Origin: an uncultured Ignavibacteria bacterium
GTDB taxonomy: Bacteria; Bacteroidota; Ignavibacteria; Kapaibacteriales; Kapaibacteriaceae
Length of the DNA: 37,437 bases
Reading direction: 5' to 3'
NCBI GenBank assembly: GCA_903939735.1
Contig: CAJAIA010000044.1
Location: forward strand, 1 to 37,437
Positions 1 to 12,905 of this stretch are shown here, in pieces. Positions within the stretch are counted from its first letter, which is position 1. Every line of letters begins with the position of its first letter. The notes under the pieces were generated by a model. The model saw nothing but the letters and a program-made list of their open reading frames with translations, ran no database searches and had not been told where the DNA came from. Made by a program: the position numbers and the translations under genes.

Positions 1-121
1 CGCTCGGGTGATGACGCGTGTGCGCAATGTGGGGTGAAGTCACCCTTCGCTCCGCTCGGGTGATGACGCGTGTGCGCAATGTGGGGTGAAGTCACCCTTC
101 GCTCCGCTCGGGTGATGACGC
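1..121. repeat. 52-bp tandem repeat containing a REP-like palindrome
   Basis: The unit recurs with a period of exactly 52 bases: its 'gggtgatgacgcg' core starts at about 6, 58 and 110. Two units are complete and a partial one begins at the window edge, so the array may continue to the left. Each unit holds a 31-base palindromic segment (39-69 and 91-121) in which TCACCC pairs with GGGTGA around a CG-rich loop. The rest of the unit contains 'gtgtgcgcaatgtggggtg'. The last copy overlaps the 3' end of the GIY-YIG gene and supplies its stop codon. It lacks the spacer diversity of a CRISPR array. Confidence 0.9.
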
Positions 122-424
122 GTTTCGAGTCGGAAGAAAGAAGAAAGGCGGCTTGAGTTCGACCATCTCTGGATTTGATGCAATGATAATTGCAAGTTTT
201 TGAGCGCGGGATCGACGTTTGAGTCGCTTCTCCCGAGCAATTGCTCGTACAATCTGATCGAACCACTCTACGTACACAACGTCGTAGATCCTATGACGAC
301 CGCAATAGTGCTCGGGGCCTTCAATGAGATGCTCATTTCTGCGGCGCGCTAGATTATTTGTGACGCCGATGTAGAACTTATTACGCTGCTTGTCAGCCAT
401 GATGTAGATGCAATTTCGCTTCAT
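92..424 (-). CDS. Small GIY-YIG domain nuclease-like protein
   Basis: The predicted protein has 110 residues. It opens with the split GIY-YIG signature (CIYIMADKQRNKFYIGVTN), followed by NLARRRNEH with the usual Arg and His. A later IAREKRLKRRSRAQK segment matches the RExxLKxW-like part of stand-alone UvrC-N/YhbQ-type domains, and the metal-binding Glu is probably in this AREK stretch. Such domains cut or nick DNA; the substrate here is unknown. I chose ATG at 424 because the domain starts at once; 463 would add 13 unlikely residues. The tail ASSPERSEG and the TGA stop are encoded by the palindromic repeat. The gene lies exactly between inverted 31-bp repeats (91-121 and 476-506), which suggests a mobile or recently inserted unit. 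Confidence 0.82.
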   Translation of the reverse strand: MKRNCIYIMADKQRNKFYIGVTNNLARRRNEHLIEGPEHYCGRHRIYDVVYVEWFDQIVRAIAREKRLKRRSRAQKLAIIIASNPEMVELKPPFFFLPTRNASSPERSEG

Positions 425-475
425 ACCCCAAAGGGCAATCGGACAGCGAATCCGTGACAACACCCGATCACAAGT

Positions 476-506
476 GCGTCATCACCCGAGCGGAGCGAAG
501 GGTGAC
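476..506. repeat. Inverted copy of the 31-bp REP-like palindrome
   Basis: Bases 476-506 are the exact reverse complement of 91-121 and of 39-69. Together with the left copy they bracket the GIY-YIG gene. The copy lies inside the end of argH: the last seven or so codons (SPFAPLG) and the TGA stop at 482-484 are repeat sequence. Confidence 0.93.
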
Positions 507-1762
507 AGTGCCTCTATCCCCGGATTCCCTACGCTCCCCAACGCACTGCCTTCAACGATGGTGGTCGGACGTGCGAAGGTGCCGTTCTTGAGTTCATCGG
601 CGACCATGCGATAGGCGTCGCGGAACGGCACACCTGTGCGGACGAGTTCTTCTACGCGTGCAACGCTGAATACCGCATCGTACGACGGATCTTGCAGCAG
701 ATTCTCGACAGGCGTGATGTGTGGCACAACGTGCAGCGCAACGTCAAGCAGGAGTTGCGTCTCATCGATCGCATCAACGATAACGTCCTTGATGAACTGC
801 ATGTCACGGTGATATCCCGACGGCAGATTGCTCAACATCGTTGCGATCTCGTGGGGCACAGACTGCATACGATTGCAACGCGCACGCAGCACCTCGAACA
901 CATCCGGGTTGCGCTTATGCGGCATGATGCTTGATCCTGTCGTAAAAGCTTCCGGCAACGTGATGAAGCCGTAGTTCTGACTCGCATACTGCACAACATC
1001 GGCAGCGAAACGTGCAAGTGTAGAAAGGGGCTGAGCAAGCGCAATGGCAGCAAGCTTCTCGGTACGTCCGCGTGACATTTGCGCAAATGTGCTGGTAACG
1101 TGTACCCGATCGAAATTCAATGAGCGCGTCGTCAGCTCACGATCAAGCGGCAGCGATGTACCAAAGCCTGCAGCACTGCCAAGCGGATTGGCATTCGCTG
1201 CATCGATGCCCATGTCAAGCACACGCAAGTCTTCAATCAGCGCCTCGGCGTACCCACCGAACCACAGTCCAAAGCTTGAGGGCATGGCGATCTGGAAGTG
1301 CGTATATCCTGGCAGCTCAACATTGACGTGCTTCTTGGCGAGCCTGATGAGCAGCTCGGCGAGTTCCTTGACGCGCATGCGCGTACTGCGAAGCTCATGT
1401 CGGAGGAAGAGTTTGAGGTCGACCAGCACTTGGTCATTGCGGCTGCGTCCGGTATGGATCTTCTTACCTACATCACCCAGCTTACGCGTGAGCATAGCTT
1501 CGACATGCGAATGAATGTCCTCGCATGCGGGGTCGATGACAATGCCATCACGGTCTATCTCTTCGAGCATATCAGAAAGCGCAGTCGTGAGCTGACGTCG
1601 CTCATCGTCGGAGATGAGGCCGACAGCGCCAAGCATTTCCGCATGCGCAATCGACCCAACGACATCCCATCGTGCAAGGCGCACATCAACGTCGCGATCA
1701 CGTCCAACGGTGAAGGATTCCATCAGTGCGTCGATGGGGGCCCCTTTATCCCATGGCTTCAT
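482..1762 (-). CDS. argH: Argininosuccinate lyase
   Basis: This enzyme splits argininosuccinate into arginine and fumarate, the last step of arginine synthesis in the cytoplasm. The 426-residue protein carries the fumarase/aspartase superfamily signature GSSIMPHKRNPD near residue 280, the HTGRSRNDQ substrate loop near residue 104, and ELPGYTHFQ near residue 150. The ATG at 1762 overlaps the argE stop as ATGA, so translation is probably coupled. It is the last gene of the operon. The C-terminus is odd: after the family-typical EGSALGSVGN stretch, the residues LSPFAPLG and the stop come from an inserted palindromic repeat, so the native tail has been replaced. The core fold and catalytic motifs are intact, so it is probably active. 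Confidence 0.96.
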   Translation of the reverse strand: MKPWDKGAPIDALMESFTVGRDRDVDVRLARWDVVGSIAHAEMLGAVGLISDDERRQLTTALSDMLEEIDRDGIVIDPACEDIHSHVEAMLTRKLGDVGKKIHTGRSRNDQVLVDLKLFLRHELRSTRMRVKELAELLIRLAKKHVNVELPGYTHFQIAMPSSFGLWFGGYAEALIEDLRVLDMGIDAANANPLGSAAGFGTSLPLDRELTTRSLNFDRVHVTSTFAQMSRGRTEKLAAIALAQPLSTLARFAADVVQYASQNYGFITLPEAFTTGSSIMPHKRNPDVFEVLRARCNRMQSVPHEIATMLSNLPSGYHRDMQFIKDVIVDAIDETQLLLDVALHVVPHITPVENLLQDPSYDAVFSVARVEELVRTGVPFRDAYRMVADELKNGTFARPTTIVEGSALGSVGNPGIEALSPFAPLG

Positions 1763-12230: not shown

Positions 12231-12905
12231 TTACTCGGCCGATGCTCCGCCGTCTGCACCTGCATCTGCTGTTGAGTCTGCTGCGTCTGTGCCAGTTTCT
12301 GCTGGCGCTTCTGCTGGAGCCTCGACTGGTGCTTCCACCGGTGCTTCTACTGGAGCCTCTGCTGGAGCTTCTTCAGCTACAACGGCTGCTGCAACGACTG
12401 CTTCAGCGACTGGTGCTGGTGCTGCTGGCTTTGGCTTCGCCATTGGCTTTGGCTTTGCTGGGCCCTTCGCGACCTTACGCTTTGTTGACGACGAGCGACC
12501 ATCTTGTGGATTCGACCAATCAACGAGTTCGATCATAGCCGTGTCGGCATTATCGCCGCGACGCTGACCAAGCTTGATGATACGTGTGTATCCACCGTTG
12601 CGCTCGAGAACGAGCGGTGCAATCGTATCGAACAGCTCTTGCAGGACGGCCTTGTTCTTGATGAAGCGACCAACCATACGACGGTTGTGCACGTCAACAC
12701 CAGAAATAGTACCCGTCTTCTCAGAGCGATGAGCGTTACGAGCACGCGTGATCAACTGCTCTGCAAACGGACGAAGTTCCTTCGCCTTTGCAACCGTTGT
12801 AACAACGCGCTTATGTTCGAAAAGTGATGTAGCCATGTTCGCAAGCATCGCGCGCTTGTGGCTCGCGGTACGCTTGAGTTTTCGGCCTGCATACTGGTGA
12901 CGCAT
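12231..12905 (-). CDS. rplQ: 50S ribosomal protein L17 with long low-complexity tail
   Basis: Residues 1-130 are a normal L17, from MRHQYAGRKLKRTASHKRAML to MIELVDW, located near the exit tunnel of the large subunit. After that comes a Lys/Pro-rich stretch (about 140-165) and then an acidic Ala/Pro/Glu tail with repeated EAP(V/A) units at about 180-203. The total of 224 is far beyond the usual 115-170. AAGGAG precedes ATG 12905. It is the last gene of the operon and is followed directly by the terminator. The tail repeats in DNA may vary in copy number. Confidence 0.95.
   Translation of the reverse strand: MRHQYAGRKLKRTASHKRAMLANMATSLFEHKRVVTTVAKAKELRPFAEQLITRARNAHRSEKTGTISGVDVHNRRMVGRFIKNKAVLQELFDTIAPLVLERNGGYTRIIKLGQRRGDNADTAMIELVDWSNPQDGRSSSTKRKVAKGPAKPKPMAKPKPAAPAPVAEAVVAAAVVAEEAPAEAPVEAPVEAPVEAPAEAPAETGTDAADSTADAGADGGASAE

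Follow-up and report, generated by a model that had tools for sequence, protein, structure and literature searches.

A small GIY-YIG nuclease gene between inverted CGTC-type REPs as a putative minimal mobile unit across bacterial phyla

The DNA analysed here, a 37,437-bp stretch that makes up the whole of contig C44 (the window; source genome G000, 2.47 Mb in 45 contigs), begins with a short gene for a GIY-YIG nuclease enclosed by inverted copies of a REP-like palindrome. We consider it likely that this arrangement is one instance of a widespread minimal mobile unit, composed of a GIY-YIG gene of 90-110 residues and inverted CGTC-type REPs, in which the nuclease is cognate to its repeats much as RAYT is to GTAG REPs. 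The association of gene and repeat, their inverted symmetry, the movement of units from tag to tag, the empty sites and the matching of repeats to nuclease clades are supported by sequence comparison. That the enzyme itself moves the repeats, and by what cutting chemistry, is inferred in the absence of biochemistry. The case rests on comparative evidence because the window's own repeat is weak and low-copy. The first-pass annotation had recognized here the logic of RAYT/REP systems with a GIY-YIG enzyme in place of the usual one, a reading supported by related genes bracketed by inverted tagged REPs across phyla, and one that reaches much further than the window. Its suggestion of a mobile unit that moves or multiplies the repeats is supported as well, none of the three outcomes that would have refuted it having been found: movement of the unit and empty sites emerge from the comparisons, and the nuclease as the mover remains an inference.

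Results

The locus and its repeats in the source genome

The features of the locus are as follows.

1-123, no strand: tandem array of period 52 bp, 2.4 copies, 100% matches
1-17, within the 52-bp array: partial third repeat copy
39-69, minus strand: REP-like palindrome, a perfect direct copy, with its CGTC tag read on the minus strand
91-121, minus strand: REP-like palindrome that provides the stop and last codons (..SSPERSEG) of the GIY-YIG gene
92-424, minus strand: small GIY-YIG nuclease gene, 110 aa from the ATG at 424 or 123 aa from the upstream GTG at 463
476-506, plus strand: inverted REP-like palindrome in which the argH-like ORF ends, encoding its final residues (..LSPFAPLG) and stop
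482-1762, minus strand: argH-like neighbour gene, whose C-terminus ends in the repeat and marks the insertion site

Most of what had been read from these letters alone is borne out. The copies at 91-121 and 476-506 are exact reverse complements over all 31 nt, the direct copy at 39-69 and the partial third copy do form a tandem array, and the gene lies between the inverted copies and ends inside one of them, its stop codon (92-94) falling within the 91-121 copy. The description of each 31-mer as itself palindromic is correct only in outline. The repeat is palindrome-like and imperfect, with a 6-bp outer stem, and its predicted fold is unremarkable (z -1.29; 16 of 200 shuffled sequences fold equally well or better). 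Read on the plus strand from 477, it starts with CGTC, and this end points toward the gene, opposite to the outward tag of the canonical arrangement. Compared with a canonical CGTC REP, the CGTC end is present, but the 6-bp stem begins two bases later and folds weakly. A covariance model of canonical REPs (R1) gave no match to the window-type repeats in G000. Overall, this repeat is a weak variant present in few copies. Elsewhere in the window, positions 12297-12457 hold adjoining runs of 12-bp and 6-bp tandem repeats.

The contig starts inside the 52-bp array, and contig C20 of the same genome carries a pap2-like gene followed by the same array at its end. Since both contigs end in that array, we infer an assembly break within it and the order pap2-like gene, array, GIY-YIG gene, repeat, argH-like gene. 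The names argH and pap2 are our assumption from the appearance of the sequences, with no family search behind either.

Had the repeat occurred nowhere else in the genome, the initial reading would have been refuted. Searching the 2.47-Mb genome for the 30-mer pattern with 3 or fewer mismatches gave 10 matches (backward control, 0): six at this locus, three in the window and three at the end of C20, and four in further places, on C3, C14, C26 and C43. The regions on C14 and C43 (L011 and L013) are paralogous and share the window-type repeat together with adjoining sequence; by its similarity, the repeat was either copied together with its neighbourhood or inserted before the duplication.

Of the four PF01541 matches in the genome, two fall within long ORFs and two are small genes, one in the window and the other on C22. 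Densely packed palindromes follow the C22 gene on one side; by eye, they share the CGCTCGGG and GATGACGC blocks with the window repeat, and neither the 30-mer pattern nor the tagged-hairpin scan matched them. In this genome the expected link between GIY-YIG paralogues and repeats rests on these one-sided palindromes, related by eye. In other genomes, related genes are flanked by tagged hairpins.

The nuclease

The window protein belongs to the GIY-YIG superfamily by its PF01541 domain (51.2 bits, cut-off 22.6) and its conserved catalytic residues; 14 alignment columns are invariant over 29 members, the window protein included. Its AlphaFold model (mean pLDDT 86) retrieved Slx1, HIGLE, UPF0213, I-TevI and UvrC N-terminal domains at Z 5-8, which identifies a predicted GIY-YIG fold and nothing more specific. 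Slx1 and UvrC work on branched or distorted DNA. By sequence profile, the nearest PDB entries are the UPF0213 proteins BH0048 (1zg2) and EF2693 (1ywl), with a best E of 2.5e-6; UPF0213 structures score Z 7.1 and 6.1 by fold, and no NCBIfam UPF0213 model matched.

Two other identities were considered and rejected. In Pfam, the window protein matches only GIY-YIG and, below threshold, T5orf172, with no HUH/Y1 domain; lacking an HUH domain, the gene is not a local RAYT. An anti-phage defence gene was ruled out on PADLOC, which gave 0 matches for the window protein and one among the 29 members, at E 4e-4.

Association with tagged REPs across phyla

Genome contigs were scanned by protein similarity alone, which gave 573 loci; the best 80 were analysed and, counted by us from record titles, represent about 17 phylum-level groups. 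The six seed proteins all came from loci already showing tagged hairpins. Among these best 80 of 573, hairpins tagged [CT]GTC lie within 400 bp of the gene at 70 loci and on both sides at 47, at a density of 2.85/kb near the gene versus 0.19/kb more than 1 kb away. Although the scan required the YGTC tag, the signal exceeds the wrong-tag controls: reversed, scrambled and complementary tags give 0.05-0.13/kb near the gene (2 to 5 of 80 loci). No GTAG-tagged hairpin was found within 400 bp of the gene in the 80 loci. The tags mostly point outward, with 61 plus and 22 minus upstream, and 65 minus and 29 plus downstream. Adding a relaxed hairpin raises the counts to 73/80 on any side and 51/80 on both (3.17/kb near, 0.33/kb far; tag controls 0.19-0.31/kb, 9 to 13 of 80 loci).

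The inverted symmetry does not depend on the hairpin or the tag. Taking the best ungapped inverted match between the 250-bp flanks of the gene, with a score of at least 14, 54 of the 75 loci with enough flank were positive versus 2 of 389 sham positions; Fisher values are overstated, since sham positions within one locus are not independent. Among related genes for single-domain GIY-YIG proteins, only yhbQ of E. coli K-12 was examined; it has no flanking inverted repeat by this measure (score 8) and sits on a very long tree branch. Controls were limited to far positions, sham positions and a set of lower-scoring genes described below (set C), and did not include size-matched genes.

Ten of the 80 loci lack a strict hairpin (L060, L073, L076, L087, L095, L098, L102, L108, L115 and L123). 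Related inverted flanks can be made out by eye in L060, L098, L102, L108, L115 and L123; the other four were left unread. In L115 (Legionella jamestowniensis) the flanking inverted palindromes start with GAAT, not YGTC, a tag variant.

A gap-free alignment of 48 repeats, restricted to 28-nt sequences whose tag is followed by AT, reads YGTCAT..., with a stem of 8, a loop of 4 and the tail CCAG, and the stem letters covary in pairs; the constancy of GTCAT is a selection effect, because only such repeats were kept. The tail, which the scan did not require, is CCAG in 124 and CCAT in 27 of 177 near hairpins (151/177). The canonical repeats at related genes thus satisfy the definition of CGTC REPs: an unpaired CGTC or TGTC end, an 8-9-bp stem that starts with AT, a 4-5-nt loop and a CCA tail. 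The gene is tightly packed between them, the nearest repeat edges often lying 7-50 bp upstream and 5-45 bp downstream. In a plasmid collection, 33 records match the protein; ten of our own choice were read, and eight show clear YGTC-type repeats at the gene, with no YGTC-type flanks at the Rhizobium tumorigenes locus and an ambiguous result for Photobacterium. One Neisseria gonorrhoeae record has a GIY-YIG gene beside dRS3-like repeats.

Relatives within the order of the window

The window protein has matches in 47 of the 123 genomes of its order. Strict [CT]GTC-tagged hairpins occur within 400 bp of the gene at 13 of 29 fetched loci (the window's own excluded), mostly on the plus strand to the left and the minus strand to the right, with a repeat sequence that differs from genome to genome. 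The closest relatives include L017 and L019, with arrays of CGTCA(C/T)CC... palindromes on both sides (periods 26-60 bp), L016, whose array lies on the right and whose contig edge holds an inverted copy, and L018, where a 52-bp array flanks one side; the L019 repeat also folds weakly (z -0.24). Several more loci of the order are flanked by TGTCATTCTGAGCGAAGCGAAGAATC-type repeats, in which the inner stem contains mismatches. By the relaxed scan, 31 of 43 loci (set B, the mixed hits of two protein searches of the order) carry a hairpin on some side and 24 on both, at 4.10/kb near and 0.18/kb far; the remaining 12 core loci lack a tagged hairpin within 400 bp even on these looser criteria. Cross-gene inverted repeats are present at 27 of 36 loci versus 1 of 77 sham positions.

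Set C, made up of 20 lower-scoring GIY-YIG genes, has tagged hairpins at 3 of 20 loci; it is not a clean negative, because 8 of 19 show cross-gene inverted repeats, some of the CTGAGCGGAGCCGAAGGG type. Fragments and intermediate scores (L203-L209) were left out of both sets, and L196 and L198 duplicate set B loci. Six more distant GIY-YIG genes (L180, L182, L183, L188, L191 and L192) are flanked by inverted palindromes of the CTGAGCG-AGTCGAAGGG type, and judging from these flanks the association may extend to a second repeat superfamily. The family may have expanded in genome G059, which has seven of its GIY-YIG matches, including two next to each other on C58.

In a tree of the proteins, the window protein groups with L016-L019, L202 and the C22 paralogue (support 100/98), inside a larger and poorly resolved group of core loci. 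The inverted-repeat label is scattered on the tree, with 21 changes versus a shuffled mean of 24.7; 25 of 500 shuffles were as low.

Movement as a unit and empty sites

For a mobile unit one expects copies with defined ends at more than one site, and relatives in which the site is empty. Both were found, the former in one pair of copies and, for the left end only, in a second. Both pairs come from MAG bins. In the first (L090 and L098, one MAG), the copies are 88% identical over a 413-bp unit that begins with the GTC of the left-hand REP and stops at the GAC of the right-hand one, and the sequence outside is unrelated on both sides. In the second (L049 and L088, another MAG), 363 bp are common at 81% identity, and on the left the similarity ceases two bases past the tag; the right side cannot be compared, because the L049 contig ends at the right tag. 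Between L079 and L092, loci from differently named phyla, a 343-bp stretch reaching from the left-hand REP into the right-hand one is 82% identical. By our own reading, 44 of 46 outward REP pairs 200-700 bp apart, and all 42 of those 250-450 bp apart, enclose a GIY-YIG gene, the two exceptions being longer than 600 bp. The motif alone labelled 22 of the 46 pairs, and 22 more were assigned from ORF or gene coordinates. These pairs are weak evidence on cargo, since the loci were chosen for the gene. Units are inherited vertically as well: three Thiobacillus have copies at the same position, as do two Bradyrhizobium. In Bradyrhizobium L086/L104 a REP pair of about 104 bp occupies one site and a different hairpin the other, which does not settle the target.

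Empty-site alleles in relatives, anticipated if the unit moves, were found at two places: pap2-argH in relatives of the window genome (G022, G024 and G027) and sufB-sufC in Azospirillum. In G022 and G027, of the same genus, argH and pap2 are convergent neighbours without the GIY-YIG gene or the window-type repeat between them. G024, whose ArgH and Pap2 are 96% identical to those of the window genome, has two contig ends that overlap in a different hairpin pair, and the absence of the unit is inferred from this overlap. Compared with these three genomes, the window genome lacks the last few codons of argH and pap2 and carries repeat-coded ones instead, so that the insertion, or what followed it, did not leave junctions clean to the base. 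Azospirillum lipoferum carries the unit between sufB and sufC, and the junction is without it in A. ramasamyi, A. oryzae and Azospirillum sp. B510 (95-97% identity in the surrounding sequence) and in A. argentinense (91%). No base-exact target sites were obtained at pap2-argH or sufB-sufC, where they are unreadable because the intergenic DNA has diverged, and no target-site duplication was obtained.

At the intergenic position where the window has its unit, G024 (L126 and L211) instead has a hairpin pair made up of TAGGGGCGAGACCCTGTCTCGCCC and an inverted copy of it, as if convergent gene ends were a landing zone for several unrelated hairpin families. The sufB-sufC match with a GIY-YIG gene inside recurs in Shinella sp. 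PSBB067 (L236) beside that of A. lipoferum (L224); whether these are independent hits or a transfer is unclear.

Matching of repeats to nucleases

Within the family of 23 genomes, the window-type pattern has 10 matches in G000, one in G024, two in G022 and two in G015, and in the four matches of G022 and G015 CCCC replaces ACCC. The CGTCAYCCTGCGAGCG repeat type is confined to G016, G021 and G023, the carriers of one nuclease clade, and 24 of its 27 matches are on the gene's own contig.

Across the order, the R1 model has matches in at least 39 of 123 genomes; these counts are lower bounds, because stricter filters were applied in this search and about 61 candidates were scored per genome. Canonical REPs occur in 20 of 34 genomes with a core nuclease (a match over 100 bits) versus 19 of 89 without (p 1e-4), or, counting any GIY-YIG match, in 23 of 46 versus 16 of 77 (p 8e-4). 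At least 20 REP matches are found in 14 of 34 genomes with a core nuclease versus 5 of 89 without (p 6e-6), a threshold picked after the counts were known. No test here takes phylogeny into account. The more two nuclease proteins differ, the more the stems of their REPs tend to differ as well (69 loci; Mantel r 0.215, a value reached in 0 of 2000 permutations). This correlation is unchanged after removing the GC difference, and the nearest protein neighbour has the same stem in 49 of 69 cases (71%) versus 52% of all pairs. The effect is modest.

Discussion

According to the accessible part of the 2013 survey by Di Nocera and co-workers, most REPs fall into GTAG- and CGTC-tagged superfamilies, and the latter "apparently lack a dedicated transposase" (PMC3733652). 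The same part lists as CGTC hosts Proteobacteria (mostly alpha), Chlorobi, Bacteroidetes, Spirochaetes and Thermotogae, equates Neisseria dRS3 with CGTC-1, includes Rickettsia RPE-4/RPE-6 in the class of CGTC-1 to -4, and reports no CGTC REPs flanking tyrosine transposases (PMC3733652). RepRanger (PMC12306157) cites that paper, and its main text, as far as it was available, contains neither 'nuclease' nor 'transposase'. Among the matches listed in the open-access literature, which leaves out subscription journals and preprints, no paper joined GIY-YIG genes to REPs. Our results suggest that the enzyme spreads a repeat class for which no enzyme was known, and that the pairing recurs in many distant groups. 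In its widest form the proposal is somewhat bolder, and we lean towards it with less assurance: a class of minimal transposons of about 350-420 bp in many phyla, with a GIY-YIG protein of about 95 residues as the missing mobiliser of CGTC REPs, including those of the Neisseria dRS3 type, and the window as a divergent member with a matched repeat.

The closest parallel is with REPtrons (RAYT plus GTAG REPs), in which a single small DNA-processing gene is likewise bracketed by inverted REPs, the repeats are dispersed in the genome, and REP/enzyme pairs are lineage-specific; here, however, the enzyme is GIY-YIG rather than HUH/Y1 and the tag CGTC/TGTC rather than GTAG. The repeats at canonical nuclease genes resemble CGTC REPs as described in the accessible part of the survey (PMC3733652) in their YGTC end, stem of about 8 bp, 4-5-nt loop and CCA tail, whereas the window's own repeat is weaker, its 6-bp stem starting two bases later. 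In size, fold and best PDB sequence match the protein resembles single-domain UPF0213/YhbQ-like proteins, yet E. coli yhbQ lacks a flanking inverted repeat. With GIY-YIG homing endonucleases (I-TevI, phage enzymes) it shares the catalytic domain and selfish-element behaviour, but this is a 110-residue protein without a visible intron or DNA-binding arm, and the ends of the unit are palindromic repeats. Neisseria NIME cassettes are segments bounded by inverted dRS3-type repeats; unlike these, the bounded segment here encodes a nuclease.

How might such a unit move? The nuclease would recognize the folded REP in single-stranded or branched DNA, at a replication fork or in a cruciform, and would make a structure-specific nick beside the YGTC tag. 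Host repair or replication would then join or copy the freed hairpin-ended segment at a new site, often a gene end, and the moved segment could be one REP, a REP pair or REP-gene-REP. No covalent intermediate forms when GIY-YIG enzymes cut, so that rejoining would have to be done by the host or by recombination; this host-rejoining step is the weakest in the mechanism.

The same chemistry lends some appeal to the nuclease being a homing endonuclease that breaks REP or empty sites, after which the unit is copied by recombinational repair without any transposition chemistry. Weak matches to models of intron and phage homing endonucleases (TIGR01453 in 16 and phrog_5123 in 10 of the 29 members) and the same-place copies in related Thiobacillus and Bradyrhizobium fit this idea. 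We nevertheless find it quite improbable: the window protein falls far short of the group I intron GIY-YIG endonuclease model TIGR01453 (20.5 bits versus a cut-off of 56.05), and unrelated flanks within one MAG would not be expected from a single allelic site, unless the REP is itself the site. Nor are the palindromes likely to be mere terminator or mRNA-stability hairpins at gene ends, in a coincidental neighbourhood, as their position at the 3' ends of convergent genes in the window genome and the different hairpin pair at the same junction in G024 might have led one to think. That reading, rejected on tag specificity and inverted symmetry, is also at odds with the near/far contrast, the tag-to-tag homology and the lineage-matched repeat sequences, and retains very little credibility.

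More difficult to dismiss outright, though in our judgement still unlikely, is a GIY-YIG gene that is a passenger or domesticated cargo in REP-bounded cassettes moved by another enzyme, such as an HUH/Y1 transposase. Y1_Tnp genes were found in 21 of the 24 nuclease- and REP-bearing genomes tested, and 5 of the 19 REP-rich genomes (at least 20 matches) have no core nuclease. On the other hand, no Y1_Tnp match was found in G051 (99% complete, 45 REP matches), in G053 or in G047 (76% complete). The lack of GTAG-tagged hairpins around the gene in the 80 loci points the same way, as do the 42 outward REP pairs that without exception enclose it, if in loci picked for the gene, and the survey's failure, in its accessible part, to find CGTC REPs beside tyrosine transposases (PMC3733652). 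A unit mobilised by its own GIY-YIG nuclease remains our preferred explanation.

CGTC REPs are widespread, and their mobiliser was left open by the survey that defined them, as far as the accessible part of that paper goes (PMC3733652); with a candidate enzyme, the question becomes directly testable. If the proposal is true, a second enzyme fold, unrelated to the first, would serve REP mobilisation, and a very small coding mobile element would be defined. It would also account for repeats that supply the terminal codons of genes, of which the argH-like gene of the window is an example.
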